The position numbers were made by a program, and so were the translations under genes. Below, one piece after another: positions 531 to 29,792 of a stretch of DNA of 32,977 nucleotides. Position 1 is the first letter of the stretch. Every line of letters starts with the position of its first letter. Below the pieces are notes generated by a model. The model was not told where the DNA came from and searched no databases. It saw only the letters and a program-made list of their open reading frames with translations. The stretch is from contig JAOACQ010000049.1 in assembly GCA_026417755.1 (NCBI GenBank), forward strand, positions 1-32,977, read 5' to 3'. This DNA is from Brevinematales bacterium. Its GTDB lineage: Bacteria; Spirochaetota; Brevinematia; Brevinematales; JAOACQ01.

Positions 531-547
531 AATTGAGGAGGTTAAGT

Positions 548-1267
548 TTGTTTATTTATGGTAGAAATTCTGTTTCGGAGGCTTTGACTGATAGTATTGA
601 GATTGATTCAATTTACATTGATAAGCAGAAAAAGAAAAAGTTCATTCCAATTATAAAACAGGCTCAAGAAAAGGAAATAAAGATTGTTTTTGTTTTTGAA
701 AATGAGATTGAAAAACTTTCTCATACCCAGAAGCATCAAGGTATATGTGCGAAGATTTCATTACCTCAAAATATTTATGAAAATGAAGAGGATTTTTTGC
801 TTACAGAAGATATAAAGAATATTCTTATACTTGATGGAATTACGGATACTGGTAATCTTGGGGCAATAGTACGCTCTGCTTTATTACTTGGTTGTGATTT
901 AGTTATACTGCCAAATGATAATTCAGCAAGAATTACTCCTCAGACAATAAAGGCATCCGCAGGTGGAATTTATAAACAGAAGATTTTATATGTAAATAAC
1001 TTAAATAGTTGGATAATGAACTTAAAGGAAGAAGGTTTTTGCGTAGTTGGTTTTGCGGGTGAGGCTAATAAAGTTTTATCTGAACTTAAAAATTTTGAGA
1101 AAATCGCTTGCATAATCGGAAGCGAGCATAAAGGTTTAAGGAAATCCACAAGAAAAATCTGTGATGAGTTAGTTAAAATTCCTACTACTGGTAAACTTGA
1201 TAGTCTTAATGCTTCTGTTGCTTCTGCGATAGTAATGTGGGAAATTTTTATGAAAAATAGAGGATAG
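548..1267 (+). CDS. rlmB: TrmH-family 23S rRNA (guanosine-2'-O-)-methyltransferase RlmB
   Basis: This is a SPOUT-class methyltransferase that uses S-adenosylmethionine to 2'-O-methylate a guanosine of 23S rRNA. The protein of about 239 residues opens with the substrate-binding L30e-like domain (FIYGRNSVSEAL). It carries the three TrmH-family motifs: NLGAIVRSALLLG near residue 103, IIGSEHKGLRK near 189, and IPTTGKLDSLNASVASAI near 211, which form the trefoil-knot cofactor site. I chose the TTG at 548 because GAGGAGG lies just before it and because RlmB proteins begin with this IYGRN motif. A start at 533 would place the ribosome site inside the gene. It heads the transcription unit. The alternative assignment is TrmH acting on tRNA Gm18, but the L30e-type N-terminus favours RlmB. 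Confidence 0.9.
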   Translation: MFIYGRNSVSEALTDSIEIDSIYIDKQKKKKFIPIIKQAQEKEIKIVFVFENEIEKLSHTQKHQGICAKISLPQNIYENEEDFLLTEDIKNILILDGITDTGNLGAIVRSALLLGCDLVILPNDNSARITPQTIKASAGGIYKQKILYVNNLNSWIMNLKEEGFCVVGFAGEANKVLSELKNFEKIACIIGSEHKGLRKSTRKICDELVKIPTTGKLDSLNASVASAIVMWEIFMKNRG

Positions 1268-1268
1268 A

Positions 1269-2129
1269 TTGAGGTTTTTATTTCTATCTTTTACTCTTTT
1301 TTGTAGTAATCTTTTTTCTTTGGATATTGATTTTTTATCGGAAATTAAAACTCCATATCTTATTTTACTCAAAGATTGTGAAAAGGATGAATGGATTATA
1401 GAAATTGATGAATACAATCTTAAATATAAAACTTTTTCTCTTGGTTCTCTTATAAAGATTTTTACAATCATTTCAAAATTCAAAAATAGAAGTGTTGATA
1501 TAGAAGAAAGACATAGATGTAATGGATTTAATGCTAATGATTATAGTGTTTGTTGGCTTAAAGATGGTCATAAAGAGCTATCATTAATTCCGGCTTTTGC
1601 ACAATCGTGTAATTCATATTTTTATTATTTTGCAAAAGAAATTGATTTTAAGTTATTTCTTGAGGTATTGAGGGAGTGGGATTTGTATTATGGAATAGAA
1701 AATAAAGGTAGAGTAATTCTTAATAGAGAAGAAGAGATTGCGGCAATGATAGGGAAGAATAATTTTATTAAGATAAGACCAATAGATTTTTTCATAGCAA
1801 TGGAAAATTTTATTTTCAAAAAAAAATATTTGCCAGAAGATTTATATAAAGTCCTTATTTCGGCTATGAATTTTGTTTATATTAACGGAACTGTAAGAGA
1901 AGTGAGAGAAAAACTTTATCTTTCTTCAAGTCAAAACATTATATGTAAAACTGGCACCGGTCAGTATGAAAAGGACGGAAAACCTGATATAAGAAAGGTG
2001 AATGGATTTTTTGTTGGTTGTTTGAACAATAGATTTCTATGTTTTGTAATGATTGAAAACACAAGAGGGATTGTTGCTGCGGAAGTAGGGCTTAAAATTT
2101 TTAAAAATATTTTATCTGAATATAATTGA
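1269..2129 (+). CDS. Exported small penicillin-binding transpeptidase-domain protein
   Basis: The predicted protein of 286 residues has a signal peptide (residues 1-17) followed only by a penicillin-binding transpeptidase or class D beta-lactamase-like domain. The three active-site motifs are all visible: S60-L-I-K63 (SxxK, with the GS that usually precedes it), S113-C-N115 (SxN) and K227-T-G229 (KTG). Family knowledge predicts acylation of Ser60 by a peptidoglycan stem peptide or a beta-lactam. There is no transglycosylase or PASTA domain, so it is much shorter than PBP2 or PBP3. Translation probably starts at TTG 1269, one base after the rlmB stop, with AGAGGAT as ribosome site; this keeps the signal peptide. 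It lies just upstream of a macroglobulin operon, and some bacterial macroglobulin genes are paired with the penicillin-binding protein PBP1C. D,D-carboxypeptidase, transpeptidase and OXA-like beta-lactamase are all possible. Confidence 0.75.
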   Translation: MRFLFLSFTLFCSNLFSLDIDFLSEIKTPYLILLKDCEKDEWIIEIDEYNLKYKTFSLGSLIKIFTIISKFKNRSVDIEERHRCNGFNANDYSVCWLKDGHKELSLIPAFAQSCNSYFYYFAKEIDFKLFLEVLREWDLYYGIENKGRVILNREEEIAAMIGKNNFIKIRPIDFFIAMENFIFKKKYLPEDLYKVLISAMNFVYINGTVREVREKLYLSSSQNIICKTGTGQYEKDGKPDIRKVNGFFVGCLNNRFLCFVMIENTRGIVAAEVGLKIFKNILSEYN

Positions 2130-2154
2130 CATATAGTTTTAGTAGTGTTAATAT
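2126..2154 (+). promoter_or_regulatory. Extended -10 promoter for the macroglobulin operon
   Basis: TTGACA (2126-2131) is followed after exactly 17 bases by TAATAT (2149-2154), with TG one base upstream of the -10 box (2146-2147), an extended -10 element. The -35 box shares its TGA with the stop codon of the preceding transpeptidase gene. The start codon is 24 bases after the -10 box, and the ribosome site AGGGGTG lies at 2169-2174. This is the best sigma-70 match in the window and would make genes 2179-11374 a separately controlled unit. Confidence 0.7.
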
Positions 2155-2178
2155 TATTATAAAAATCAGGGGTGTCTT

Positions 2179-3552
2179 ATGAAGAAAATAATTTTATTAT
2201 TTGTTTTTTCTATTGCGTTTGGGATTGAGTTACCGGAGTATAGTGAGCTTTTATATGTCAAAAATTTTAAAAGTTTGAGATTTGAGTTTCAGAAGTATTA
2301 TATGAATTCTATTGATCAAAAGTATTCTGATTTTTTGTTTGATTATCTTTTTTTTCTTAATACTTCATTTTATGCTGATATTGAAGATTTTTCAAAAGAG
2401 GTTAACTCACCAGTTTTTAATATTTTAAAAGATGTTTTTTATATCGTTAAGACTAAAGATGGAATTATTTTTCTTATTGAGTTTCAAGACACAAAAGGGT
2501 CTCAATTAATTAATGAACTTTTAAAGGTTGCTAATGCAAAAGGTATGAAGGGAGCATATTATGTTTCTGTATATGACAATCTTCTTGTAATTTCAAAAAA
2601 CAAAAATCTTTCCTACAATTTCAAAAGAATAGCTAAAAAACCTTCCAAACAGCTTATCGAAGCCTTTGATTCTAAATCTGATATAGTTATAGCTAAAAGA
2701 GGAAATGAAATTCTTGATAAAAGTATAGATGAGTTGATTATTAATAAACCGGAAAAATCTTCTCTTTTCTTTGGTAAACAGATTCCTGAAGCTACATTTT
2801 GCTGGAATTTGAAAACTAAAAAATTTACCTTTTATATATCTCCTGCCTCAAAGAAAGAGAGTGAATATATTGAAAAAGACTTGGCAAAAGGTTTCCCATC
2901 TGATTTTATGATATTTTTTCATTTAGCTAAGAATCCATATTTGTTCTTTTCTGCTATTTCATCTTCTGAGGTTATGAATAATTTTGAAAAAGATTTTAAA
3001 GCAAATTTTTATAATCAGATTGTTTTTGGTTATAGGGTGAAGGAGAAAAAAGGCAATTTTCTTATATCAATGAAAATGAAAGAAAATTTTTATAAAAACT
3101 CAGAATATTTTATGCAAAATTTTGTGGAAAATTTTGTAAGTCTTACTAACCTAAGGGATAAAAGCTGGGTGATTAAAAAGTACAAGAATTCTAGAATATA
3201 TCAAAATCAAAAAAATGAAGTAGCTTTTTACATTCGAGAGCCATATGTTTATTTAGCAAGTGATATTAAATTAATAGTAGAACTTATAAATACTCTTGAG
3301 GGGAATAAAAAAACTATTCTTGATACCTTTTCATTTGGTGATGTTAAGGATTTTTACATTAATAATATTGGAGTTTTCAGATTTAATTTTGAGTCTTTTA
3401 GCAGTGAATTTTTATTTTCAATGAAAGATTATACTACTATTTATCCAGAAGATGTAGAGGAATATTCAAAATGGTTGAAATCTTTGGGGGCTATAAGTGG
3501 TAAAGGTGTTTTAGATAAGGATTTTGATAAGTATGAATTTTATATCAGGTAA
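2179..3552 (+). CDS. Exported protein of unknown function at the head of the macroglobulin operon
   Basis: This protein of 457 residues begins with a clear signal peptide (MKKIILLFVFSIAFG). No catalytic motif was recognised. The remainder alternates short hydrophobic strands with charged turns and includes two similar segments built on a 'Y-V-S-V-Y-D-N-L-L-V-I-S' type strand (near residues 130-145 and 350-370), so an internal duplication of an alpha/beta unit is possible. Start: ATG 2179 after AGGGGTG. It ends 12 bases before the macroglobulin gene. In E. coli the corresponding position next to the yfaS cluster is held by yfaA (DUF2138), and it may be a distant relative or a DUF3352-like protein. 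This is suggested by position only, not by a motif. It is probably a periplasmic partner of the macroglobulin. Confidence 0.7.
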   Translation: MKKIILLFVFSIAFGIELPEYSELLYVKNFKSLRFEFQKYYMNSIDQKYSDFLFDYLFFLNTSFYADIEDFSKEVNSPVFNILKDVFYIVKTKDGIIFLIEFQDTKGSQLINELLKVANAKGMKGAYYVSVYDNLLVISKNKNLSYNFKRIAKKPSKQLIEAFDSKSDIVIAKRGNEILDKSIDELIINKPEKSSLFFGKQIPEATFCWNLKTKKFTFYISPASKKESEYIEKDLAKGFPSDFMIFFHLAKNPYLFFSAISSSEVMNNFEKDFKANFYNQIVFGYRVKEKKGNFLISMKMKENFYKNSEYFMQNFVENFVSLTNLRDKSWVIKKYKNSRIYQNQKNEVAFYIREPYVYLASDIKLIVELINTLEGNKKTILDTFSFGDVKDFYINNIGVFRFNFESFSSEFLFSMKDYTTIYPEDVEEYSKWLKSLGAISGKGVLDKDFDKYEFYIR

Positions 3553-3564
3553 GGGGAGGATGGT

Positions 3565-6500
3565 ATGAAAAAATTTGTTTTTTTATTTTTGTTAATTACA
3601 ACTAATTTGTTTTCTTTCTATCTTTCTACTGAGAAAAGTTTTTCTCCTGAGGAGGAATCAGTTATCAAAATAGAAAGTTCTTATGAGAAAAGTGTCAATG
3701 TTAGATTATACCAGATTACTGATATGGAAACCTTCTTATCCTCTGCAAAGGAACTTGATAGAATTTATTTTGGAGATTCAAATATTAAGGACAATCCAAC
3801 AGTTTTATTATTTAGGTACTTAAACATAGCCAAGAATGTTTTAAGAGAGATGGGAAGGAGGGTTTTTGGTGGAAATTATAAATTAGCTTCTGAGATAAAA
3901 GCCAAAAATAGCAAAATAATAGAACAAAAGTATTATCCACCTAAAAAAGTTATTGAAAAATTGAAGTACAAAGTAGTAAAAGAATTTAAAATTGATCTGG
4001 AGTCAAAATTTTCGAGTTGGAGTTATAAAGTAATTAATTTTGGAAAACTTCCATCTGGACTTTATCTTGCCGAGGTTTATAATGATGAACAGCTTGCTTA
4101 TACACTTATACTTGTCAGTCAAAATGCTCTTTTGGTTAAAAAGTCTGATAAAGAGCTTTTTATTATGATGGTTGATAAAAAAACAGGAAATTTTGTTCCT
4201 GCTAAGATAGAGATTTTTAATTATAAGACTGGTAAAAAAGTTGGGGGTGGAAATTCGACATCAGAAAAAGCCTTTATATATGATTTAAAGAACAATGAAA
4301 ATTCTGATTTTCTTGTTTTCGGAGAAACAATCGATAAAAATAAAGAAAAGGTTTTTTATAAGTTTTCTACTTTTCCATCTCCTAAACTAGAAAGGATGGT
4401 TTATGTTTATACTGATTCTCCCGTTTACAAGGAAGGTAACGATGTAAATATAAAAATGGTTGTGAGAGATTATGAAGGTAGTGTCTATAAAATACCGGAA
4501 GGACTGGATTTTAAATCGTATATAGTTGATCCCTTGGGCACTCGATACAATATTGAAATAACAAACAAACTTGATGAGTTTGGTTGTAGTGATTTTAAAT
4601 TTTCGGTTCCGGAATATGCTAGCAAAGGTATCTATAAAATAATATGTGAAATAGAAGGAAAGAAGTATATAGGTGAATTCAGGGTTGAGGAATATGTTGC
4701 CCCTGATTTCTCTGTTAATGTTACTACAACGAAGGATATTTTAGTTGCAAATGCAGGTAAACTTGATTTTAAGATTAGTGCTAAATATTTTAGTGGTGAA
4801 ATTCTCAAGTCTGGCGAAGTTGAGTATGCTATATTCAGGACACCTATGAGTGAAGATATTTTTGAAACTTCAAAAGATGTTTTTGAAGATCCTTCATATG
4901 CAGGTCGAATAGAGTTTGTTCATTCTGGTACCGCAAAACTTGATTCAAAAGGAGAACTTAAAGTTGATTATAATTTTGGTGTTGTTTATAGAGATTATAT
5001 TTACATTATCAGAGCAAAGGTAAGCGATGAATCATATTCTCATAGTTTTGGTTCTACAAAAATAAAGATAGTTAATAGTTTTATATTTCTTAAGGCGGAT
5101 TTTTCTAAAATGGTTTATAAAGTTGGAGAAAATGTCAGTTTAAGAGTAAATGCAAGATTTGCCAGTGGTAAGAAGGCTTCCGATCAGGAGATAGAATATA
5201 TAGCTGAAGTTGAAGAGACAAAATCTATAATTTCAAAAGGAAAGGTTAAAACTGATAAGGACGGTAATGCTATAATAAATTTCGAGGCTACTGGAAAAGG
5301 TTATATGAAAGTTTCTCTATCTGCTGTAGATATTTTTGGGAACAAGAGAGAAGAGTATGTATATGTATGGGTTGGTTCTGAGGGAGCTACTTATGCATAC
5401 ACTTCGGGAAATATTACGATTGTGTGCGACAAAGAAGAATATGAAGTTGGTGATAAAGCAAGTATTTATGTATTATTACCTGTTAGTGATGCGAATGTAT
5501 TATATACAGTTGAACGTGAAAATATATTTGACTATAAAATTAAAAAATTTAAGGGTAATTCTTCATTTGTAGAGATTCCGGTTAGTTCAAAATTATCACC
5601 AAATTTTTTTGTTTCTTTTCTTATGTTTGCAAATAATCAGGTTTATCAACAAAGTGTAAAGATTAAAGTCCCTCCAAAAGAGAAGGTTTTAAATGTAAAA
5701 ATAACGCCAGATAGTTCAATATATTCTCCAAGGGGTGAAGCTAATGTTGATATATCTGTTTCAGATGCAAAAGGTAATGGGGTTGAAGCAGATGTATCTA
5801 TAGCTGTTATTAATGAGGGTTTATATTCTTTATTTCCGGAGATTGCTCCAGATCCAAGGCTTTTCTTTTATTCTTATAGGTGGAATAGAGTGATAACATA
5901 CAATTCTACAGAACTCAGATTTTATGGTTATTCAAGATATGTAAGAGAAGATTGGTCAATGAAGATTTATAACAAAAGATACTGGAGTTTTAACGATTTG
6001 AGAAGAGATAGGCTTCTTACAGGTGTTAAAGAGGTGTCTGAAGAGGGTGAAGATGAAATGGTAAGAAAAGATTTCAGGGACAATGTGTTATGGATTGGGA
6101 GTCTAAGAACCGATAAAAAAGGAAAAGCAAATTTTAAAATAAAATTTCCAGATAATATTGGAGAATTCAGAATAACAGCTGTGGCTTTTACGAAAGATAC
6201 AAAAGTGGGAAAGGATATTAAAAAAGTAGTTTCAAAGAGAGACTTTTTTATAAGTTTTAATATGCCTCTTAATATAACACTTTATGATAATCCGATGGGT
6301 TATATCAAGGTTTTTAATTCTACGGATAAAAGTAAGAAAGTGAAACTTGAGGCTACAACTTTTGGAGGAAAAATTGATTTAAAGATAAAAGAGACAAATA
6401 TAGCAAAGAAAGATAGTGTAGTTATACCTTTCTCTATTTTGCCAACAAGTGTAGGAAAAATGACTATAAAAATTAAAGCCATAGGAGAAGGGAGTATAGA

Positions 6501-8112
6501 TATTGCAGAGGAAAAATTAAATGTTATACCAGCAACTTTACCAATAGTTTTTAGTGAATCTAAACCTTTTAAAAAAGGAGAAGTTAATTTTAACATAAAT
6601 ATTCCATCTGGAATTATAAAAGAAACTCTTGTAGCAAAGTTAGGTTATATTGAATATGAAAACCCATTAACAGCAATAATGGAAGCTCTGTTATACCTTA
6701 GATCATACCCACATGGTTGTGTTGAACAAACAACAAGCTCATTTTTGCCAAGTTTATATGCAATGGAAGCTGCTCAAAAATTGAATATCAAACTTCCTTC
6801 TGCTTTTGCTATAGATAAAGATTATATTTTAAGAGAAGGGATAAAAAAACTTACAAGCTATCAAAATAAGGATGGAAGCTGGGGATGGTTTAGTGAAGGT
6901 GAAGTTGTTACTTATATGACAGCTTATGTAATGAGTGCCTTGAATTTTGTGAAAAGAATAGACTCTTCTAAACTTGATTCTACTGTTTATTCTAAAGGTA
7001 TTAATGCTCTTACCAAGGCAGTAGATAATGAACAAATTGTTGATTTGAAAATTTATGCTTTGTATGTTCTTTCCGAGGCAAATGTCAAATTTGTTACACA
7101 ATTAAAGAATCTTTTTCCTAATTTTAGGAATTATCCATTAGATACTCTTGCTTTATATGCATTGGCACTTAAAAATTCTGGTCTTGAGAAAGAAGCTCTT
7201 GAAGTTGTTAATTATCTTGAAGGGCTTGCTATCGTTGAAACAGATAGAGCTTACTGGAAAAATCAACGTTACGTATGGTATGATAATGATATTTATACCA
7301 CTGCTCTTGTGTTAAGAGCTATTATTAATATAAAAAAGGATAGCAAAATAGTTCAAAAAGCAGTTTCATATATAATGCAAAATAGAAAAGACTTTAGATG
7401 GGGGTCAACTATCACTACTGCCAATGTTGTTTATACACTTTCTGAGTATGTAAAAAGTTATAATTTAACTGGTAGTGGTAAAGAAGATAGTTTTGATGTT
7501 TACATTAATAATCAAAAACTTGGCACTTATAAAATTCTGTCTAAAGAAGTAGCAACATCTATAATAATACCTCAAGAATTAATGAAGGTCGGACAAAATC
7601 TCATAACAATAAATGGAGAGAATAATTGTTTATATACTCTTAGCTTAAAATATTACAATGAAGGAGTTAATCAACCAATTGTAAAAAATAAGATGTCAAT
7701 AAAAAGAACATTCTATAAGGTTTCAGGAAATAAAATTGAAAAAATGGATAAGATAAAAGTTAGCCCAATGGATGTTGTTTTGGTTGAACTAGAGTTAACT
7801 TCTGATAAAAGAATAGATTATGTGGTAATTGAGGACGGTATTCCTGGTGGTTTTAAACCAGTCTATGAATTAAATGCATATAATAATCTTGGTGTAAAAT
7901 TCTTTGAGGGAACAATTCATCGTGAATTTGCAAGAGGTAAGGCAAATATTTACATTAATCCTCTGATAGGTGGAACAAGGAAATATTATTATTTAATTCA
8001 AGCTGTTTATCCAGGTAAATATTTAGCACTTTGTCCTTATGTTTATGCAATGTATAATGAGGAGTTAAATGCAATTTCTGAAAATACAGAAGTCGAAATC
8101 CTTGAAAAATAG
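3565..8112 (+). CDS. Bacterial alpha-2-macroglobulin with thioester motif (YfaS/MagD-like setting)
   Basis: This 1515-residue exported protein is a bacterial alpha-2-macroglobulin, a broad protease trap of the periplasm. A signal peptide (MKKFVFLFLLITTNLFS) has no lipobox cysteine, unlike many lipoprotein homologues. The MG-type beta domains fill the N-terminal half ('YVYTDSPVYKEGNDVNIKMV' near 283-302 is typical of MG domains). A Tyr/Arg/Lys/Glu-rich stretch near 767-835 is the likely bait region. It is followed by the family hallmark 'LWIGSLRTDKKGKANFKIKF' and the 'PDNIGEFRITA' strand. The thioester motif is G-C1052-V-E-Q1055 in the alpha-helical TED domain, and a receptor-binding-like domain ends the protein. 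The ribosome site GGGGAGGA precedes ATG 3565. Known thioester macroglobulins cross-link proteases through this Cys-Gln bond. To my knowledge, YfaS and MagD, which occupy similar operons, lack it. Confidence 0.93.
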   Translation: MKKFVFLFLLITTNLFSFYLSTEKSFSPEEESVIKIESSYEKSVNVRLYQITDMETFLSSAKELDRIYFGDSNIKDNPTVLLFRYLNIAKNVLREMGRRVFGGNYKLASEIKAKNSKIIEQKYYPPKKVIEKLKYKVVKEFKIDLESKFSSWSYKVINFGKLPSGLYLAEVYNDEQLAYTLILVSQNALLVKKSDKELFIMMVDKKTGNFVPAKIEIFNYKTGKKVGGGNSTSEKAFIYDLKNNENSDFLVFGETIDKNKEKVFYKFSTFPSPKLERMVYVYTDSPVYKEGNDVNIKMVVRDYEGSVYKIPEGLDFKSYIVDPLGTRYNIEITNKLDEFGCSDFKFSVPEYASKGIYKIICEIEGKKYIGEFRVEEYVAPDFSVNVTTTKDILVANAGKLDFKISAKYFSGEILKSGEVEYAIFRTPMSEDIFETSKDVFEDPSYAGRIEFVHSGTAKLDSKGELKVDYNFGVVYRDYIYIIRAKVSDESYSHSFGSTKIKIVNSFIFLKADFSKMVYKVGENVSLRVNARFASGKKASDQEIEYIAEVEETKSIISKGKVKTDKDGNAIINFEATGKGYMKVSLSAVDIFGNKREEYVYVWVGSEGATYAYTSGNITIVCDKEEYEVGDKASIYVLLPVSDANVLYTVERENIFDYKIKKFKGNSSFVEIPVSSKLSPNFFVSFLMFANNQVYQQSVKIKVPPKEKVLNVKITPDSSIYSPRGEANVDISVSDAKGNGVEADVSIAVINEGLYSLFPEIAPDPRLFFYSYRWNRVITYNSTELRFYGYSRYVREDWSMKIYNKRYWSFNDLRRDRLLTGVKEVSEEGEDEMVRKDFRDNVLWIGSLRTDKKGKANFKIKFPDNIGEFRITAVAFTKDTKVGKDIKKVVSKRDFFISFNMPLNITLYDNPMGYIKVFNSTDKSKKVKLEATTFGGKIDLKIKETNIAKKDSVVIPFSILPTSVGKMTIKIKAIGEGSIDIAEEKLNVIPATLPIVFSESKPFKKGEVNFNINIPSGIIKETLVAKLGYIEYENPLTAIMEALLYLRSYPHGCVEQTTSSFLPSLYAMEAAQKLNIKLPSAFAIDKDYILREGIKKLTSYQNKDGSWGWFSEGEVVTYMTAYVMSALNFVKRIDSSKLDSTVYSKGINALTKAVDNEQIVDLKIYALYVLSEANVKFVTQLKNLFPNFRNYPLDTLALYALALKNSGLEKEALEVVNYLEGLAIVETDRAYWKNQRYVWYDNDIYTTALVLRAIINIKKDSKIVQKAVSYIMQNRKDFRWGSTITTANVVYTLSEYVKSYNLTGSGKEDSFDVYINNQKLGTYKILSKEVATSIIIPQELMKVGQNLITINGENNCLYTLSLKYYNEGVNQPIVKNKMSIKRTFYKVSGNKIEKMDKIKVSPMDVVLVELELTSDKRIDYVVIEDGIPGGFKPVYELNAYNNLGVKFFEGTIHREFARGKANIYINPLIGGTRKYYYLIQAVYPGKYLALCPYVYAMYNEELNAISENTEVEILEK

Positions 8113-8122
8113 GGGGAAAGAT

Positions 8123-8764
8123 ATGAAAAGGTTTATAATTATATTTTGTATTATTTCGGTTATGGTTTATGCTATAAATATTGAATCTCCTGAGGGCGGA
8201 CTAAGAAGGGAAAAAATTTTTAATCTTAGAGTTTCAGATATAAATGGATTATTTAAAATTAACTATAATGGAATAGAATTTTGGGCACGTGGTGGTGGAA
8301 ATGAATTTTTTAGAGCGATGGTGCCTGCAAGGGGAATAAATGTAATAACTGTATCGGATTATGATAATCCTCTTAATAAAGATAGCATTACTTTTTATGC
8401 AGATATTCCTCCAACTACACTTAAGGTTCTTTTGTTCTGGGATACTGATAATACAGATATGGACTTGCATGTTGTTGAACCAAGTGGAGAGGAATGTTAT
8501 TATGGGTATAGAAAGACTAAACTCGGAGGATCTTTAGACGTTGATGTAACGACTGGATATGGTCCGGAAATCTACGTTATGGATTATCCAAATCCTGGCC
8601 TTTATGAGATTTACATTCATTATTATGGTGGAGTTGCTCTGACAGAAGCTACTGTGTATGCTATTTTATATGAAGGAACTGCAACTGAAGAAAGATATAT
8701 TTTCAAAATGAAATTAACTAAGCCGGATGACAGGATTTATGTTGGAAAGGTTTACATTAAATAA
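8123..8764 (+). CDS. Exported DUF2135 (YfaP-like) protein
   Basis: This protein of 213 residues has a signal peptide (MKRFIIIFCIISVMVYA) and a C-terminal DUF2135 domain, the domain of E. coli YfaP. The conserved run is visible at about residues 97-175: 'LLFWDTDNTDMDLHVVEPSG', then 'GGSLDVDVTTGYGPEIYVMD', then 'PGLYEIYIHYYGG'. This looks like a beta-sandwich with an Asp-rich metal-binding edge. The start was set at ATG 8123, which follows GGGGGAAAG. An in-frame upstream ATG at 8069 lies inside the macroglobulin gene and would bury the signal peptide, so it was not used. The gene begins 10 bases after the macroglobulin stop. Function is not known; the recurrence of DUF2135 beside macroglobulins suggests a partner of the macroglobulin. 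It overlaps the next gene. Confidence 0.85.
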   Translation: MKRFIIIFCIISVMVYAINIESPEGGLRREKIFNLRVSDINGLFKINYNGIEFWARGGGNEFFRAMVPARGINVITVSDYDNPLNKDSITFYADIPPTTLKVLLFWDTDNTDMDLHVVEPSGEECYYGYRKTKLGGSLDVDVTTGYGPEIYVMDYPNPGLYEIYIHYYGGVALTEATVYAILYEGTATEERYIFKMKLTKPDDRIYVGKVYIK

Positions 8765-9746
8765 AGTTATATTTATTACACTCTTCATAATTTTAATCTT
8801 TCTTCTTATATTTATTTTATATCCAGAAAGAGTTCAGATTTCAATGAACAGAGATGTATTCTATATAAGCAAGAGAGATCCCTTAACTGTCTCATTTGAA
8901 AGGGGTAAATTTTTTCTTAAAAAGATCACTAATGTTGAATTAAATATTTTGCCAGAAGGTTCTTGTAATATATTGGAAAGAGAAAATGATTTTTTAATTT
9001 TTTATAATACAAATAAGGTAATTGATAATATAAAATTAGAAATAAATTATAAAGGTAAGAAATTTATTACCAATCTTTCAGTTGTTCTACCACTCAATGA
9101 TTTTGATAGAGATGGTTATCCAGATTTTATGGAGGAAATAAATAGAAAAAATTTTGTAGAATGGTTCTGTGTGATTGTTGAATCTCAATTTTATTATCCT
9201 TCTGATGAATGGTATGATGTTCATAAGGATTGTGCTGGTTTGATAGAATTTGCTTATAAGATGGCTTTGATGAAACATAGTGAAGATTGGGTAAAGAAGT
9301 TCAAGTATTTGCCAGATGTTTCAATACCCGATGAAAACATTTTTTATTATCCCGATATTCCTTATCTTGGAAGAAGGGTTTTCAGGGTAAGAGAAGGTAG
9401 TTTTAATACCGAGAGCATAGATGTGGATTTCAGTGAAACTGCTTCTGGCTCATTACTTAGGAATTATTCTATGGTGTTTAAAGGAAGAGACTATAGAGAT
9501 GCTGAAAAAGGTGATATTTTTTTCTTTTTTGATGATAATAATCTTAAAATGCCTTCCCACTCAATGGTTTTTTTTAAAGATGTTGAGCCATATTTTATTT
9601 ATCATACTGGACCGGACATAACCAACAAGGGGTTTGTAAAAAAGGTTTTTCTTAAAGAATTACTTAATCATCCTAAAATTGAATGGAGACCAGTTCCTGA
9701 AAATAAAAATTTTGTCGGTATTTATAGATGGAAAATTTTAGATTGA
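8727..9746 (+). CDS. Membrane-anchored DUF1175 (YfaT-like) protein, possible NlpC/P60-type hydrolase
   Basis: This protein of 339 residues has one N-terminal membrane anchor (about residues 14-32) and a periplasmic DUF1175 domain, the family of E. coli YfaT. Visible motifs are 'HKDCAGLIEFAYKMALMKH' around Cys169, 'EKGDIFFFF' near 260, and 'PSHSMVFF' around His278. The Cys...GD(I/V)xFF...His order is that of NlpC/P60-like cysteine peptidases that cut peptidoglycan stems, so a hydrolase role is inferred. Its first 38 bases overlap the DUF2135 gene, which points to coupled translation. ATG 8739, behind AGGA, is an alternative start and keeps the anchor. A segment near residue 125 (DFDRDGYPDFMEEI) resembles a calcium-binding EF-hand/dockerin loop. 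Confidence 0.8.
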   Translation: MTGFMLERFTLNKVIFITLFIILIFLLIFILYPERVQISMNRDVFYISKRDPLTVSFERGKFFLKKITNVELNILPEGSCNILERENDFLIFYNTNKVIDNIKLEINYKGKKFITNLSVVLPLNDFDRDGYPDFMEEINRKNFVEWFCVIVESQFYYPSDEWYDVHKDCAGLIEFAYKMALMKHSEDWVKKFKYLPDVSIPDENIFYYPDIPYLGRRVFRVREGSFNTESIDVDFSETASGSLLRNYSMVFKGRDYRDAEKGDIFFFFDDNNLKMPSHSMVFFKDVEPYFIYHTGPDITNKGFVKKVFLKELLNHPKIEWRPVPENKNFVGIYRWKILD

Positions 9747-11374
9747 TTTTTCTTTTAATTTTTTCTTTTAATTTTTTATACACTGTTGAGTATTCTTTTA
9801 ATGGGGGGATAATTAAATCTGAAGAATTTCTTGTGGCTGAGGAAGTCCAGTTTATAGAAGATACATATTTTGAAGCAAAGAAAATTGTCGAAAATTTATT
9901 TGAGAAAGAATTAAAGAAAGAAAGAATAGAAATAATTTTTTTTGCTTCTACAAAAGAATTTACCGAAAAATTTGGAGTAAATTATAGAGTAGGGGGAATT
10001 TTCAGTGGAAATAATATTTATTTTCAACCATTCAAAGTTTTAAAATCAAAAACGGATTTAAAGAAAATTTTTCTTCATGAATTTTTGCATTTTTGGCTTG
10101 ACAAGGCTATTGATTTGCCGGATTTTTTAGCCGAAGGGATTGCATTATATTATAGTGAATTAATTGTAAAGAAAAGTAACCTAATTTTTCCTGAAGATAT
10201 TGAAAAAGTTAAAGAAAAATATAATGAAAAATATCTTTTTTCTGCTAAAGAATTTGTTAATTACTTAATTAACCAAAAGTTATTAAAAGTTGTTTTAGCT
10301 GACAATAGTTATATCGAATTATATAGAAAGTTTTATTTTGAAAATTCTCAGAAAATAAGAGTTTTAATTAATCCAAGAAAAGAAAAAGAGTTATATCTTA
10401 AAATATATTCTGGTTATGCTAGGGTGATTACAAAAGAGGGGGTTTTTGATATTAAAAAGCCAGAATTTGCTATTTTTATGAATAATGGAAAGTTTTTCCT
10501 TTCGGGCAAGGAAGTTATTTCAATATATTTTTATACTGAGAGATTTAGTTTGAATAACAAAGAGTATAGAGGAAGCCTAATTTTAACAAATGAGCTTGCC
10601 ATAAATATTCTACCGGTAGAATATTATATTTATAGTGTCATAAGTAGTGAAATGCCCCCTTTACAAATTGAAGCAATGAAAGTGCAAGCTGTTTTATCAA
10701 GGACATTAGCTTATTATTTTATAAAGACAAGGAAGAATGAATTATATGATGTGAATTCTTTGACTGATAGTCAGAATTATAGAGGTATGAGTGAAGAAAA
10801 TTATCAAAGTAAAAATGTGGTTAGTGAGACACAGGGTGAAATCATCACATTTGCCGGAATGATTATACCTGTCTACTTTAGTTCTACTTGTGGTGGGAAA
10901 ACTGCAAACAGCGAAGATGTTTGGAATGACTCCCTTCCTTTTTACAGAGGAGTTAAATGTGTTTATAAGGATGAAACAAACTGTAGTGTTTCACCACATT
11001 TTAAAGAATGGGAACGTTTTTTGACAAATGAATTTTTGTATTCAATTGGCATAACAAATTTAGGTTTCGTCTATTCGGAAGAAAGAATTAAAAATGTTGC
11101 TATTGATGGGAAAATAGAGAGTTTTGATTTCTTTAAGGCTAAGATTTCAAAACACCTTGGTTGGAATTTTCTTAAAAGTAATTTGTTTGTAGTTGAAAAA
11201 AGAGAGAATGGTTATCTAATTAAAGGTAGAGGACTGGGACACGGAGTAGGAGTATGTCAGTATGGAGCTATCGGACTTGCAATGAAAGGGAAAAAATATA
11301 AGGATATAATTAAATTCTATCTTTCAGGTGTCGAAATAGAAGAATTTACAAACCAAAATCTCTGGGAATTTTAA
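9728..11374 (+). CDS. Exported fusion of gluzincin-like zinc peptidase and SpoIID/LytB domain
   Basis: This protein of 548 residues has a signal peptide (about residues 1-19) and two parts. Residues about 30-190 look like a peptidase-MA-type zinc peptidase: H117-E-F-L-H121 supplies two ligands and the catalytic Glu, and E136 in 'FLAEGIALYY' is the expected third ligand. Residues about 285-548 are a SpoIID domain: 'NILPVEYYIYSVISSEMPP', 'AMKVQAVLSRTLAYY', 'SSTCGGKTANSEDVW' and the closing 'GRGLGHGVGVCQYGA'. SpoIID of Bacillus is a lytic transglycosylase that cuts glycan strands denuded of stem peptides. The gene overlaps the DUF1175 gene by 19 bases and is the last of the operon. Its 3' end runs 29 bases into the convergent fusion gene. 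E. coli YfaQ has a similar length, but I cannot confirm homology. Confidence 0.85.
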   Translation: MENFRLIFLLIFSFNFLYTVEYSFNGGIIKSEEFLVAEEVQFIEDTYFEAKKIVENLFEKELKKERIEIIFFASTKEFTEKFGVNYRVGGIFSGNNIYFQPFKVLKSKTDLKKIFLHEFLHFWLDKAIDLPDFLAEGIALYYSELIVKKSNLIFPEDIEKVKEKYNEKYLFSAKEFVNYLINQKLLKVVLADNSYIELYRKFYFENSQKIRVLINPRKEKELYLKIYSGYARVITKEGVFDIKKPEFAIFMNNGKFFLSGKEVISIYFYTERFSLNNKEYRGSLILTNELAINILPVEYYIYSVISSEMPPLQIEAMKVQAVLSRTLAYYFIKTRKNELYDVNSLTDSQNYRGMSEENYQSKNVVSETQGEIITFAGMIIPVYFSSTCGGKTANSEDVWNDSLPFYRGVKCVYKDETNCSVSPHFKEWERFLTNEFLYSIGITNLGFVYSEERIKNVAIDGKIESFDFFKAKISKHLGWNFLKSNLFVVEKRENGYLIKGRGLGHGVGVCQYGAIGLAMKGKKYKDIIKFYLSGVEIEEFTNQNLWEF

Positions 11375-13616
11375 GATTTTGTTTGCCTTTTTCTTTCAGT
11401 TCTTTTATATTTTTTATATTTGTTAAAGCCATTGCTTTTTTAAGCTCGTTGGTGATTTTATCTATGTATTGTCTTACTCCTTGACTACCTCCACCAGTAG
11501 CATATATCATTACTGGTCTTCCTATCATTGCGAAATCAGCTCCTAAAGCCAACACTTTATAAACATCATTACCACTTCTTATTCCACCATCGTATATGAT
11601 GAGAGCGTCATTTCCTATAGCTTTTTTTACATTTATCAGAGCTTCAATAGGTGTAATATATGAATCAGAAACTCTTCCGCCATGGTTTGAAACTATAATT
11701 ATTTTTGCTCCTGCTTTTAAAGCTAGTTCTGCATCATATGGGTTTAATATTCCTTTGATAACAAATGGTAATTTTGTTGAAGAGATTATCTCTTTTAACT
11801 CTTCAAAACTTTTAGTAGAAGTATTCTGACCCTTTATCTCCATTGTTAAGAATGAAGCAGCATCTATATCTATGCCTACTCCTAAAGCTCCTGCTTTTTC
11901 TGCAGATTTAATTCTTTCTAGTATCATAGAGTTGTCTACTCTAGGTTTGAAAATTGGGACAGCCATCCCAAAGTTTTCAAGGATAACTTTTAAAGATATT
12001 TTATATTTAGTCGGAGTTGCACCATCACCTAAAAAACCGATAGTTCCTGAGTGGTTTGCACCTTTTACTATAGATCTGGCAAGTTCAAGCTCACTTATTG
12101 CCCCTCCAAGATTTGTTATTGCTCCAGTTATAGGAGCCGGGAAAATAGGGGTTTCAATATTTAAATCTAGAAAGTTAACCCTTGTATCTGGCTTAAAATT
12201 TTGGTGGATATAATAGGGAATAATTTCTATATCTCTTATCTTTTCGATAGTTTTGATAAAACCATTGCCATTTCCAAGAGACCCAACTCCAGGCATCCAG
12301 CCTTTACACTTTTGGCCATCGCAGTCAGGACAAACAGCACATTTGCCATTGAATTTAATCCTTGCTCTGTCTAATATTTGATTTTCAGGCATGTAAATAT
12401 CCGGTTCATATTCATACGAAGTTTTTATTCTTATAGATCGAATAGCTTGATGAGAAGCAAGGATTGCCTCTTCATATGTTGGTGCTGCAACAATTATATG
12501 CCCCTGTTTATCAAGATTATTTTTTGGGGGATATACTTTGTCTTTTATTTTAACATCTAGAAATACATCATTCAGGTATTTAATGTTTTTTGAATTATCT
12601 TCTATCTCATAGACTATTCCTGGGGGAGAGATTATTGCTCTTTCGATTGATACCCAGTTCTTTGTAGGCGTGAGATTTTTTGGTGGTAAGCCAAGAGAAA
12701 TATATATTATATTTTCCATTAAATCTATACCTGATGAGTATGGGAAGGTGTAGGTAGACATAAAGCCGCCTGATAGTCTTGCGGCTATTTCACCTATATA
12801 ACAACCAGAATGTGAAATTTTTATATCTCCTTTTGCTGCACCAATATTTATACCAATTGCCTTTATACCCTTTTTGAAGGTATCAATTGCAAAAGATATT
12901 AAATCTTCACTTAACTGGCTTGGCATTATATGTCCGGTTTCTACAAAATATGGATCATATTCTATAATTCTATCTGCCACTCCGGTAATAAAAATTTCAT
13001 TATTGTATATCAGGGCATCTATTGATAATTCAGGAGCGTCTATATATTGTTCTATCAAAACCTTTCTTTCCTGAGAATATTGCATAGCAAGTTCGAATGC
13101 ATCTTTTAAGTCATTAAGATTAAAAACTCTTCTGACACCTCTTGCTCCCATATTCTTAATTGGTTTTATTACACAATCTGTTCCCATTCTTTCCATGACT
13201 TCACAGGCTTTTGTATAGTTGTCGACTATTTCAAAATCTGGCACAGGAACCTTTGCATTTCTTAAAGCCTTCCTCATTTCGTATTTGTCTGTTGCTTTTA
13301 TAGCTGTTTCTGGAGTTATGCCAGGAAGACCTATTTTTTTAGCAGATAAAGCTACGGTATAGCTTGCATCTGTTCCTACTGTTAAAACAGCATCTATTTT
13401 TTGCTTTTCTTTATCAAAATTTAAAAGTAAATCGCTTGTCAATTCTGCATCGAGAGTGCTTGCTTGAATAAAAAAGTCTGCTTCTTTAACTCCTGGTGCT
13501 AAAGGGTTTCTATCAACTACAACAGTTTTTAAGCCAAGTCTTTTAGCTGTCTTTATAACAGGAAGCTGGAGAAGGCCTCCTCCTATTATAGCTATAGTTT
13601 TACCTTTTATATCCAC
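11346..13616 (-). CDS. Fusion of ATP-grasp ligase and FMN-dependent alpha-hydroxy-acid dehydrogenase
   Basis: One open frame of 756 residues joins two enzymes. Residues 1 to about 405 are a pre-ATP-grasp plus ATP-grasp ligase: 'IAIIGGGLLQLPVIKTAKRLG' type Rossmann start, 'CVIKPIKNMGARGVRRV' nucleotide loop near 150, 'EQYIDAPELSIDALI' near 195 and 'GEIAARLSGGFM' near 275. Such enzymes join a carboxylate to an amine or thiol using ATP. Residues about 420-756 form an FMN TIM barrel of the lactate/glycolate oxidase family, with the catalytic SNH645GGR motif and 'YDGGIRSGNDVYKVLALGAD' as phosphate site. A four-cysteine set (C426, C429, C432, C437) joins the halves; such a set also opens some stand-alone bacterial members of the FMN family. 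The start is GTG 13616, four bases after acpS, with AAGGAG overlapping the acpS stop. Substrate unknown. Confidence 0.88.
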   Translation of the reverse strand: MDIKGKTIAIIGGGLLQLPVIKTAKRLGLKTVVVDRNPLAPGVKEADFFIQASTLDAELTSDLLLNFDKEKQKIDAVLTVGTDASYTVALSAKKIGLPGITPETAIKATDKYEMRKALRNAKVPVPDFEIVDNYTKACEVMERMGTDCVIKPIKNMGARGVRRVFNLNDLKDAFELAMQYSQERKVLIEQYIDAPELSIDALIYNNEIFITGVADRIIEYDPYFVETGHIMPSQLSEDLISFAIDTFKKGIKAIGINIGAAKGDIKISHSGCYIGEIAARLSGGFMSTYTFPYSSGIDLMENIIYISLGLPPKNLTPTKNWVSIERAIISPPGIVYEIEDNSKNIKYLNDVFLDVKIKDKVYPPKNNLDKQGHIIVAAPTYEEAILASHQAIRSIRIKTSYEYEPDIYMPENQILDRARIKFNGKCAVCPDCDGQKCKGWMPGVGSLGNGNGFIKTIEKIRDIEIIPYYIHQNFKPDTRVNFLDLNIETPIFPAPITGAITNLGGAISELELARSIVKGANHSGTIGFLGDGATPTKYKISLKVILENFGMAVPIFKPRVDNSMILERIKSAEKAGALGVGIDIDAASFLTMEIKGQNTSTKSFEELKEIISSTKLPFVIKGILNPYDAELALKAGAKIIIVSNHGGRVSDSYITPIEALINVKKAIGNDALIIYDGGIRSGNDVYKVLALGADFAMIGRPVMIYATGGGSQGVRQYIDKITNELKKAMALTNIKNIKELKEKGKQNLKIPRDFGL

Positions 13617-26661: not shown

Positions 26662-28296
26662 TTACCAATCACCTTCTATGTAAAAGGCAAATTTATAATT
26701 CTCTTTTTCTGGATTTATTCTTTTTTCATAACTGTATCCAAAACCTGATGTTATATCTTTTAGTTTTATTTCTCCATAAAGAGCATATTCATAGCCTTGA
26801 CCATAGTAGGCTCGTAAGGTAAAATCTCCAAAATAAAAGTCCTCTTCAGGATAATATAGGGCTGAATAATAGCTATCAGCCTTATAGTATAGATAACGAG
26901 CCTTGATTTTAAAGAAATAGGGATATAATATTAATCTTGTCATAATAAAATTACCAGTTTCATTCTTTAAAATTTCAGTTAAGTTTTGATATCTTAAATG
27001 TAAGACAATTTTATTATCAAAAAAACCAGAATTTAAGTATATGTAATTTCTAAAATTTCTCGTTGTTCTTAAATCAGAATATCTACATTTAAGTTCAATA
27101 GAAAAATCTGAGAATATAAAATTTTTGGTTTTAAAACCACTTTTTAATTCATATTTTTGATAGATGTTTTCGTTTGTAACCCTACTAAAAATGTTCAAAT
27201 AACCCTGAATGTAAAAAGGGGTTAACTTTTGATTGACCCCCAAAAAAACACCCTTTGAATCTTTTTTGTAATCTATTATTTCTTCACCATTAATTGAATT
27301 AAAATTAGTTTCTGAGTAATAAAATAACCCTGAAATTTTTGTTTCTTCAAATGTTGTCTTTATTCCTTGTACGATAGATAATCCATCTGAAATTGCAATT
27401 TCTCCATAAGGATTAAATAAAGGTGTAAGAGGGAAATCATAAAAGAAGCTATATTCATTGGTATTTGTAGAATTGTAACTTAATATACATCCAGCTTCAA
27501 TGTTCTCTCTGTATATTAAGGCTGTTGTTATGTGAAAATTTGTGTTTGTTTTAATAAGTTGTTTGGCAATTGATAAGTAAGGGAAAAATAAGTTTTTTAT
27601 TTTTAAGTTTAATGCTATTCCATCTAGATAGTCAAAAATTTTATTATTATCGGAATCTTTGTTTGGATTTTTGTATCTTACTATTCCTCTTGTCTTTTTA
27701 TGGATTGGATATTTTGAGATGTCATCTATATAATTTATAGAACCTGTTCCAAATAATAAATTTTGCCCAAAAGAAAGCTGATAATGCCCAATAACAAAGT
27801 TAATTAGCTCATTTTCAAATGAAAAATTATATACTGAATTGGAGAGAAAGTAGGACTGTTCTTTCTCAAGAATATTTGTCTTACTATTAATTCCATAGAA
27901 AATATTAAGTTCTTTGATTTGTATTTCTGATTCAAAGATATTTTGGTTGGTATTATTTTTTTCTTTTGTAATATAGCGAAAAAAGAAAAAAAGTTCTTTT
28001 TCCGGTGGGTTTTTTATCCTTATGTATGGAGAGATTTTTTCTATATTTTCAATACTTAGGCCAAAGTTAGTTAATTCATAAATGGATTTAAAAAAATTGT
28101 TTTTTCTGAAATTTTCAAAATTTCTGGATTGTTTTTCATTGAGTTGCAGGAGTTGATTTAGGTAAGAGAATTTTGTTGTGTTAAGATCCATTGGATGGAT
28201 AAGAAGATCTCTATAAAATTCACCTTCTTCTTCTATAGAATATAAAATATTTATAAGTAGAAATATTATTAATAATTTACTCCATTCTCGAAACAT
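26662..28296 (-). CDS. Outer-membrane-type protein with N-terminal helix-hairpin-helix domain
   Basis: This protein of 544 residues has a signal peptide (about 1-20), a ComEA-like pair of helix-hairpin-helix motifs (about 34-92: 'HPMDLNTTKFSYLNQLLQLN', then 'FFKSIYELTNFGLSIENIEK' and 'ISPYI'), and a long region (about 105-544) of alternating aromatic-rich strands ending in 'KFAFYIEGDW', as expected for an outer-membrane beta-barrel. Similar HhH-barrel proteins occur in Bacteroidetes and related groups, without known function. In ComEA this domain binds DNA in the periplasm. It starts inside motB (20-base overlap, ATG 28296), and no good ribosome site is visible, so it probably depends on translational coupling to the flagellar genes. 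A stator accessory role and DNA uptake are both possible; neither is shown. Confidence 0.78.
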   Translation of the reverse strand: MFREWSKLLIIFLLINILYSIEEEGEFYRDLLIHPMDLNTTKFSYLNQLLQLNEKQSRNFENFRKNNFFKSIYELTNFGLSIENIEKISPYIRIKNPPEKELFFFFRYITKEKNNTNQNIFESEIQIKELNIFYGINSKTNILEKEQSYFLSNSVYNFSFENELINFVIGHYQLSFGQNLLFGTGSINYIDDISKYPIHKKTRGIVRYKNPNKDSDNNKIFDYLDGIALNLKIKNLFFPYLSIAKQLIKTNTNFHITTALIYRENIEAGCILSYNSTNTNEYSFFYDFPLTPLFNPYGEIAISDGLSIVQGIKTTFEETKISGLFYYSETNFNSINGEEIIDYKKDSKGVFLGVNQKLTPFYIQGYLNIFSRVTNENIYQKYELKSGFKTKNFIFSDFSIELKCRYSDLRTTRNFRNYIYLNSGFFDNKIVLHLRYQNLTEILKNETGNFIMTRLILYPYFFKIKARYLYYKADSYYSALYYPEEDFYFGDFTLRAYYGQGYEYALYGEIKLKDITSGFGYSYEKRINPEKENYKFAFYIEGDW

Positions 28297-29017
28297 AGAT
28301 ATCTATTCTTCTGTTGTATGCTCTTCCTTCTGGAGTGTCATTTGATTCGAGTGGCTCATGTTCTCCCCTTCCTTCGGCATACATTCTTGAGGGTTTAACA
28401 CCGAGAGCCTCAAAATATCTGACTACAGATGAAGCTCTTGCAGTTGAGAGTTCCCAGTTTGTGGGGTATATTTTTGCCATTTCTGATGCTTTAGGAATTG
28501 GAGAATTATCTGTGTGTCCAACAATTTCAATTTTAACATCGTCACCGGCGTCTTTCAGGAGAAGACCAACTTTTCTTAATACTTCTCTACCCTCTTCAAA
28601 GTCTATTTCTGCACTGCCGGGTCTGAAAAATAGATCACTTGCTATTGTGATTTTATAACCTTTTTGAGTTTCCTGAACACGAACTTTTTTTGCTCTGATT
28701 TCCGGGGTAAGGAGTTGTTCTGCATTTTTCATTGCCTTTGAAAGTTTGGTACCTAAGTCCTGTGATGGTAAACTTTCGATTGTATTTCCAAATTCTGCTA
28801 GAGGTCCTTTGGTAAGTGTATTTCCTCCTTCGAGGGCACCAAGAGATCCTTTAAAAGCTGATAAAATGAGCTGCATTTCTGTGGAAGCTGTGTTTTTACT
28901 CATTGTTGCAATAAGCATAATGAAGAATGTGAGTAGTAAGCTATTCATATCTCCATAGGTTGTCATCCAGGCTGGAGTGGAGTATGTTACCTCGGACTTT
29001 TTTTTATTTCTTGCCAT
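28277..29017 (-). CDS. motB: Flagellar stator protein MotB
   Basis: MotB anchors the proton-driven stator to peptidoglycan. The protein of 246 residues starts with a short cytoplasmic tail, then a single membrane segment carrying the proton-binding Asp23 in 'PAWMTTYGDMNSLLLTFF', then a plug/linker and an OmpA-like peptidoglycan-binding domain (about 110-246) with 'IEIVGHTDNSPIP', 'NWELSTARASSVVRYF' and 'GRAYNRRIDIYV'. It begins one base after the motA stop. It overlaps the HhH gene at its 3' end. The long Ala/Gly-rich stretch near residues 50-75 is usual for spirochaete MotB. All key residues appear to be intact. Confidence 0.96.
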   Translation of the reverse strand: MARNKKKSEVTYSTPAWMTTYGDMNSLLLTFFIMLIATMSKNTASTEMQLILSAFKGSLGALEGGNTLTKGPLAEFGNTIESLPSQDLGTKLSKAMKNAEQLLTPEIRAKKVRVQETQKGYKITIASDLFFRPGSAEIDFEEGREVLRKVGLLLKDAGDDVKIEIVGHTDNSPIPKASEMAKIYPTNWELSTARASSVVRYFEALGVKPSRMYAEGRGEHEPLESNDTPEGRAYNRRIDIYVSRME

Positions 29018-29018
29018 A

Positions 29019-29792
29019 TTATTTACCTTCTTCGGATTTAGGTCTTTGAGCCGGTGGTAGGAATGAATTTAATTTTTCTCTTAATATTGTTGGGTTATCA
29101 CCAGCCTGTATAGAAAGAACTCCTTCAAGAACAATTTCTTTCATTATTACATCATATTGGTTCCATAGATAGAGTTTTGCTGACATTGGTAAGAGAAAAT
29201 GGTTTGCTAAAATAGCTCCATAAAGTGTGGTTATCAAAGCTGTAGCCATATTCTTACCGATACTAGAGACGTCCTGCATGCTTCTTAACATAGCTATAAG
29301 ACCTATAAGTGTTCCTATCATTCCCCAGCTTGGAGCAAAATATCCCCAGTCATCAAATATCTTTCTTGCCTGAGCGTGCCTTGTTTCCATTTGATCCATT
29401 TCTGCATACATTATATTTTTTACAACCTCCGGGTCTGTTCCGTCAACTACAAGTTGCAATGCTCTCTTGAGAAAAGGATCTGGAACCTCTGCAACATCAT
29501 CTTCAAGAGCAAGAACTCCTTCTCTTCTTGATTTTTCTGCAAATGTTATCAAAGTTTCAATAGTTGAAGATGGATCAAAGGCTTTATTTTGAAATGCGAG
29601 ACCAAATAATGTTCTCAACATTTTTATTCTTTCAAATGGAATACATATCATTAAAGAGGCAAAAGAACCACCGATAGTAATTAATACAGAAGGTAAATCA
29701 AAATATATAGAAAGGTCGCCTGTATTAAGCCAGGCACCCCATAACCATAGAATTGTCCCACCTATAACACCAATTAACGTTCCTCTTTCCAT
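29019..29792 (-). CDS. motA: Flagellar stator protein MotA
   Basis: MotA forms the ring of the proton channel of the flagellar stator. The protein of 257 residues has four membrane segments (about 7-25, 32-52, 152-172 and 184-205). It contains the conserved 'GYFAPSWGMIGTLIGLI', with the channel-lining Pro, and 'MATALITTLYGAILANHFLL'. The cytoplasmic loop holds the charged residues that contact FliG (for example 'EKSRREGVLALEDDV' near 85-99). It lies between flbD and motB, three bases after flbD. Length and topology are normal. Confidence 0.97.
   Translation of the reverse strand: MERGTLIGVIGGTILWLWGAWLNTGDLSIYFDLPSVLITIGGSFASLMICIPFERIKMLRTLFGLAFQNKAFDPSSTIETLITFAEKSRREGVLALEDDVAEVPDPFLKRALQLVVDGTDPEVVKNIMYAEMDQMETRHAQARKIFDDWGYFAPSWGMIGTLIGLIAMLRSMQDVSSIGKNMATALITTLYGAILANHFLLPMSAKLYLWNQYDVIMKEIVLEGVLSIQAGDNPTILREKLNSFLPPAQRPKSEEGK

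Follow-up and report, generated by a model that had tools for sequence, protein, structure and literature searches.

We examined a stretch of 32,977 nucleotides (nt), hereafter the window, from a Brevinematales bacterium of the Spirochaetota (contig JAOACQ010000049.1, positions 1 to 32,977 of the forward strand, assembly GCA_026417755.1). Between positions 1269 and 11374 it contains six tightly packed, co-directional genes on the plus strand, which form an operon of the mag/yfa type around an alpha-2-macroglobulin (A2M). In gene order these encode an exported transpeptidase-domain protein of 286 amino acids (aa; 1269..2129), an exported protein of 457 aa (2179..3552), the macroglobulin (1515 aa; 3565..8112), a DUF2135 protein of the MagA/MagF/YfaP family (231 aa; 8069..8764), a DUF1175 protein of the MagC/YfaT family (339 aa; 8727..9746) and an exported fusion of an HExxH domain with a SpoIID/LytB domain (548 aa; 9728..11374). 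The genes are separated by gaps of 49 and 12 nt and then by overlaps of 44, 38 and 19 nt. Four of the six proteins carry an evident hydrophobic signal sequence, as judged by eye. The macroglobulin adjoins DUF1175 and DUF2135, the combination that marks a mag/yfa operon. A preliminary description of this DNA had reported six genes in one direction with gaps or overlaps of at most 50 nt, a GCVEQ motif in a mag-type neighbourhood and peptidoglycan-active domains encoded beside the macroglobulin, all of which were confirmed here.

The macroglobulin has a signal peptide with no evident lipobox, and Pfam matches to MG2, MG3, the bait region (residues 618-756), A2M (841-929), TED (from about 1041) and bMG10 (1377-1500). 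The thioester motif G-C1052-V-E-Q1055 (residues 1051-1055; 6715..6729, plus strand) is exact in the sequence and in the alignment. A predicted structure of residues 830-1515 (mean predicted local distance difference test score, pLDDT, 89; predicted template modelling score, pTM, 0.83) was compared with known structures by template modelling (TM) score. It resembled native E. coli A2M (5a42, TM 0.74; 4ziu, TM 0.70/0.74) and native Salmonella A2M (4u48, TM 0.72), against a TM of 0.44 for trypsin-activated E. coli A2M (4ziq); complement folds also matched. In the model the thioester domain has a closed, native-type fold, which would shield a thioester. That Cys1052 and Gln1055 form one in the window protein is an inference.

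The active-site motifs of the transpeptidase (PF00905, 4.4e-10) are complete: S60-L-I-K63, S113-C-N115 and K227-T-G-T230. With SxxK, SxN and KTG all present it belongs among the D,D-transpeptidases and penicillin-binding proteins. SxxK and SxN are conserved in the aligned family rows and KTG(T/S) in 51/53, the other two being fragments. The penicillin-binding domain that had been described beside the macroglobulin is thus present, but as a small stand-alone transpeptidase and not as PBP1C. The product of the second gene had no Pfam match, DUF2138 included. In profile-profile comparison its family matched DUF2138 with a probability of 94% (E 1.5e-7, 350 columns), compared with 0.2% or less for the five other operon families, and one of its members (locus L020) matches DUF3352 at 4e-11. 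E. coli YfaA is a DUF2138 protein and corresponds to MagB by order and size. These matches suggest that the 457-aa protein is remotely related to DUF3352 and DUF2138 and is probably the MagB counterpart. The predicted model of this protein is weak (pLDDT 56), and a structural likeness to TP0453 (TM 0.27) obtained from it was not used. The idea that the second gene is unique to the window was dismissed, as family members adjoin DUF1175 in spirochaetes and Myxococcota.

The DUF2135 protein scores barely above the Pfam cut-off (PF09906, 22.9 against 22 bits), and phmmer relates it to E. coli YfaP at 1.6e-31. An alternative start at 8123 instead of 8069 would leave a 10-nt gap to the macroglobulin gene and give a better signal peptide, and is perhaps the true one. 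The DUF1175 protein (PF06672, 2.4e-47) has an N-terminal membrane anchor and retains a Cys (DCAGL) and a His (HSM); in the family alignment the Cys is found in all rows and the His of HxM in all except one gapped row. The family profile finds the structure of MagC (PDB 7bk8) at 5.9e-58, with weak matches to NlpC/P60 cell-wall hydrolases. DUF1175 has been classed as an inactive, peptidoglycan-binding relative of NlpC/P60, with Zouhir 2021 as source (PMC10318531).

The SpoIID/LytB domain of the last protein spans residues 290-538 (about bases 10595-11341) and matches PF08486 at 2e-17, NCBIfam TIGR02669 at 3e-54 and the SpoIID structure 4rwr at 1e-26. The motifs SEMP, STCGGKT and GLGHGVGVCQYGA are preserved, and the domain, the conserved Glu and the GHG motif together place the fusion in the SpoIID family. 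Its likeness to the SpoIID lytic transglycosylases (4rwr, 5i1t, 5txu) extends over the domain, the conserved Glu, STCGGxT and GHG.G.CQ, while its fusion to HExxH, its encoding with a macroglobulin and its occurrence in a spirochaete set it apart. The N-terminal, zinc-peptidase-like half had no Pfam match; HEFLH (residues 117-121) and Glu136 form a gluzincin-type motif, and homologues of this half mostly retain HExxH and the downstream Glu. Judging from their motifs, the transpeptidase and SpoIID domains are apparently enzymatically intact.

The peptidoglycan-active domains had been read in the preliminary description as additions to the mag gene set, a view contradicted by E. coli YfaQ (DUF2300, MagE), which itself matches Pfam SpoIID at 7e-6. 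The SpoIID Glu and the K-A-x-x-x-x-x-R-[ST] region are present in the YfaQ alignment and the C-terminal GHG.G.CQ motif is lost, whereas the window protein, like its relatives in spirochaetes and Acidobacteriota, preserves this motif. DUF2300 found no match in the window; the SpoIID domain encoded there is homologous to the SpoIID segment of YfaQ. As YfaQ is a SpoIID relative that has lost the C-terminal motif, SpoIID belongs to the known mag set, in eroded form. A literature search of partial coverage found no paper mentioning DUF2300 or linking macroglobulins to SpoIID.

DUF1175 loci were collected from GTDB genomes (best 80 of 541 relatives), 399 Pseudomonadota genomes (15 positive) and 393 Spirochaetota genomes (24 positive). 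Genome contigs were scanned for DUF1175 with an alignment query; a single-sequence query had given no match. A macroglobulin lies within 3 kb of DUF1175 in 83/101 loci, and 71 of the 78 DUF1175-linked macroglobulins with a readable thioester region carry CxEQ, proportions that are not population frequencies, as the 80 GTDB loci are those nearest to a spirochaete query. CxEQ was present in 37/37 loci of Acidobacteriota, 9/9 of Spirochaetota (window included), 7/7 of Thermotogota and 5/5 of Myxococcota, and in one locus each of Deinococcota, Synergistota, Atribacterota and the unassigned L025. Pseudomonadota retain it in 9/16, and all seven CxEQ-less loci of the survey fall here; they include E. 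coli, Superficieibacter and some full mag operons, while other full proteobacterial mag operons keep the motif. The generalization that macroglobulins linked to DUF2135 and DUF1175 lack CxEQ, on which the preliminary description had relied, is therefore true only of some Pseudomonadota.

The partner enzymes also recur. Within 13 kb of DUF1175 and on the same strand we found SpoIID in 53 of the 101 loci and the transpeptidase and HExxH domains in 40 each, several contigs being truncated. The complete family set of the window operon occurs in two spirochaete loci (L022 and L023), with HExxH and SpoIID as separate genes, and near-complete sets occur in Leptospirales and in metagenome-assembled genomes of Myxococcota/deltaproteobacteria. 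Recurrence of the gene set in other genomes excludes a chance assemblage. Gene order varies between lineages. The window operon is one example of a widespread arrangement and not a one-off hybrid; many mag-type operons with CxEQ, and the same family set elsewhere, are what the preliminary description had itself listed as counting against its proposal. Acidobacterial loci share the three enzyme domains, DUF1175 and a CxEQ macroglobulin with the window. They differ in that the enzyme domains are mostly fused in a single protein of 750-1025 aa (for example L034:15902-18907 and L062:16581-19268), DUF2135 was not detected and a predicted multi-pass membrane protein follows the macroglobulin.

Some further observations concern these families. 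The acidobacterial membrane protein, of about 250-300 aa, is predicted to be multi-pass and is conserved between the A2M gene and the gene for the fused SpoIID, transpeptidase and zinc domains (L035, L038, L044, L062 and others); it showed no match to the operon families tested and may replace MagB as membrane anchor. An acidobacterial protein of about 285 aa was considered as a DUF2135 relative and rejected. The spirochaete locus L151 (5738-11107) encodes a CxEQ macroglobulin with no DUF1175 nearby, and the next gene, of 662 aa, matches both SpoIID and transpeptidase profiles. Three complete six-gene mag operons (L109, L111 and L112) have DUF2135 proteins at both the MagA and MagF positions, so that MagA and MagF look like paralogues. 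In spirochaete family f20 (L021, L127-L130) there are short, divergent DUF1175 proteins of about 210-290 aa whose surroundings showed no recognisable macroglobulin; DUF1175 may also act independently of the mag complex.

At the GCVEQ position, Gly replaces Cys in every Cys-less sequence, giving GGVEQ in L109, L111, L112, L113 and L122 and GGVVN or GGVIN in Superficieibacter and E. coli. The history of this position was followed on a 60-row macroglobulin tree built without the thioester columns and a carefully made one of 13 rows for the proteobacterial clade. The minimum number of changes in thioester state is three, a count tied to this sampling, as L122 pairs with the CxEQ-bearing L121 at only 93/94 support. 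Constraining the Cys-less rows to one clade was rejected (p-AU 0.004), and a further complete mag operon (L159), whose genome belongs to the class of L109, carries GCVEQ. On these trees the thioester disappears piecemeal within Pseudomonadota, in three or more separate losses. Provided that regain is rare, the operon had CxEQ ancestrally and the type II state of the literature is a derived one. The sequences accordingly favor one half of the earlier proposal of an "ancestral or hybrid" operon: CxEQ is found in every readable locus outside Pseudomonadota, and the CxEQ-bearing form is probably the ancestral one; the hybrid half is taken up below.

Published work sorts bacterial macroglobulins into two types, type I with a thioester and PBP1C and type II with a mag operon and no thioester. 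Type I A2M are proposed to combine protease trapping with wall repair by PBP1C (PMC3328433), and type II A2M are defined as macroglobulins without CxEQ (PMC5764988). This second class was described as lacking CxEQ only "in many species" (PMC3328433), a wording from which the existence of exceptions is not new. Compared with the type II operons P. aeruginosa magABCDEF and E. coli yfaAPQST, the window shares the macroglobulin, DUF1175 (MagC/YfaT), DUF2135 (MagA, MagF/YfaP), a SpoIID-related protein (MagE/YfaQ) and probably an exported remote relative of DUF2138 (MagB/YfaA). It differs in that CxEQ is intact, that the SpoIID domain is complete and joined to an HExxH peptidase, that a stand-alone transpeptidase is added and that DUF2135 is encoded once and not twice; DUF2300 and DUF2138 have no Pfam match, and the gene order is another. 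With the PBP1C-linked type I proteins, YfhM (ECAM) and Salmonella A2M, it shares CxEQ in the TED, the fold and a nearby penicillin-binding domain, but the partner is a 286-aa transpeptidase domain and not the bifunctional PBP1C, the neighbourhood is mag-type, the signal peptide shows no evident lipobox, and the protein lies elsewhere in the tree. The window operon is mag by neighbourhood and type I by thioester, and the two-type scheme does not classify it; the definition of type II fails likewise for the 71 CxEQ-bearing proteins of the survey.

We propose that this mag-type operon, probably ancestral and catalytically intact, encodes a periplasmic envelope-defence complex anchored at the inner membrane that joins a protease trap to wall remodelling, and we assign this reading a probability of about 0.62. 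The bait region would be offered to an intruding protease, and its cleavage would cause a conformational change that exposes the Cys1052-Gln1055 thioester for a covalent bond to the protease. The macroglobulin would be anchored at the membrane by the DUF2135 and DUF2138-like proteins, and the MagC-like DUF1175 protein would dock the complex onto peptidoglycan. Trimming and re-crosslinking of damaged wall, or disposal of trapped proteins, would fall to the SpoIID-type domain (of the lytic-transglycosylase family), the separate transpeptidase and the HExxH peptidase. The MagD protein of P. aeruginosa, which has no thioester, can trap a protease and is associated with MagA, MagB and MagF at the inner membrane (PMC5764988). 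The assembly of a complex in this organism, the enzyme activities and a role in defence are inferred.

Several points weigh against this proposal. The window macroglobulin is divergent, with 30% identity to its best relative and a long branch. In the tree, mag-type macroglobulins do not come out as a single clade (a one-clade test was rejected), and the neighbourhood may thus have been re-assembled at times, although the test is a weak one that omitted nested CxEQ macroglobulins without DUF1175 neighbours and involved long branches. The transpeptidase and zinc domains are absent from the sampled proteobacterial operons with DUF2138 and so are dispensable in some versions. MagC has been described as inactive (PMC10318531), and the window DUF1175 protein may then only bind. 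Finally, the protection that MagD confers is against wall hydrolases, by a molecular mechanism that is unknown according to the authors (PMC12663445); the main task may then be something other than protease trapping.

One alternative is that the wall machinery is the core and the macroglobulin a sensor or switch: proteolytic damage would cleave the bait, and the thioester so exposed would acylate peptidoglycan or a neighbouring envelope protein and label the place to be repaired by SpoIID and transpeptidase, with no protease trap. The intact SxxK/SxN/KTG and SpoIID motifs, the acidobacterial fusion of both domains with the HExxH domain, the binding of peptidoglycan by MagC (PMC10318531) and the protection by MagD against certain wall-targeting effectors but not the other effector classes tested (PMC12663445) would all fit such a switch. 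Protease-linked activity has, however, been measured for E. coli YfhM-class and MagD proteins (PMC5764988, PMC3328433). We know of no macroglobulin that acylates peptidoglycan, and we regard a pure sensor as unlikely. A related possibility, to which we give similarly little weight, is that the mag system was at its root a damage-triggered wall repair system, in which bait cleavage would mark the damaged site covalently, on protease or on peptidoglycan, and activate or recruit the attached SpoIID and transpeptidase. The proteobacterial mag operon would then be a reduced relic, left by stepwise loss of the transpeptidase, of the latter half of SpoIID and, on several occasions, of the thioester. 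It is still less likely that the transpeptidase and the Zn-SpoIID protein are general wall enzymes that are adjacent by chance. Gene order is not constant, and many mag-type loci, the proteobacterial ones among them, lack the transpeptidase and zinc domains, as such a loose association would predict; against it stand the recurrence of all three domains near DUF1175 in Spirochaetota, Acidobacteriota and Myxococcota and their fusion in Acidobacteriota.

The least probable explanation, by a wide distance, is a true hybrid in which a PBP1C-linked, YfhM-type thioester macroglobulin recombined into a mag operon in this lineage. In its favor, none of the 17 other genomes sampled from the class has the operon's DUF1175, although most carry a different macroglobulin, so the operon could have arrived horizontally; it was either acquired whole or kept only here. 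The genome, which is 87% complete, has one macroglobulin gene and one DUF1175 gene, and no match to BiPBP_C, the C-terminal mark of PBP1C, was found in the assembly. Whole-operon arrival, however, would not make a hybrid. The window macroglobulin pairs at 99% support, with 30% identity, with mag-type L023, from spirochaete GWB1_36_13, and the two sit within mag-type macroglobulins of Spirochaetota, Myxococcota, Deinococcota and Acidobacteriota, apart from the PBP1C-linked L131 and L150 and from macroglobulins of its own order (L134-L136). Tree and survey together largely refute the hybrid. Foreign DNA or contamination was considered for the contig and is unlikely, given the kinship of the SpoU protein encoded beside the operon, which is closest to the same family (54% identity), and a uniform GC content at third codon positions (0.18-0.23 in the operon and 0.17-0.28 in the rest of the window).

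Contrary to the published sorting into type I and type II, the mag operon usually encodes a thioester protein among the loci surveyed. MagE appears to be an eroded SpoIID, and the wider family includes an intact transpeptidase, which links macroglobulins to wall remodelling in both classes. The window would hold both arms in one mag-type unit, with a predicted covalent trap, membrane anchor, peptidoglycan binder and SpoIID and transpeptidase domains. MagD protects P. aeruginosa against the peptidoglycan-targeting effectors VgrG3 and Tae1 of the type VI secretion system (PMC12663445), and the association with wall enzymes is a lead on why it does so. Natural operons with CxEQ and with GGVEQ make the roles of the thioester and of the wall enzymes separately testable.

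Immediately upstream, a gene for a SpoU-family RNA 2'-O-methyltransferase (533..1267, plus strand; PF00588, 4e-35) ends 1 nt 5' of the transpeptidase gene, and the transcript may therefore start 5' of the SpoU gene. The best promoter-like match, at 502-530, lies just 5' of that gene, but shuffled sequence yields such matches at least as often. In two relatives the SpoU gene has other neighbours; its function is probably unrelated to the operon. PADLOC gave no match to a known anti-phage defence protein. Downstream, on the minus strand, 11346-13616 encodes a 756-aa protein in which an ATP-grasp/amino-acid-ligase-like part is fused to an FMN-dependent dehydrogenase part, an unusual combination. 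MotA/MotB-type stator genes at 28277-29792 (minus strand) are consistent with a motile spirochaete.

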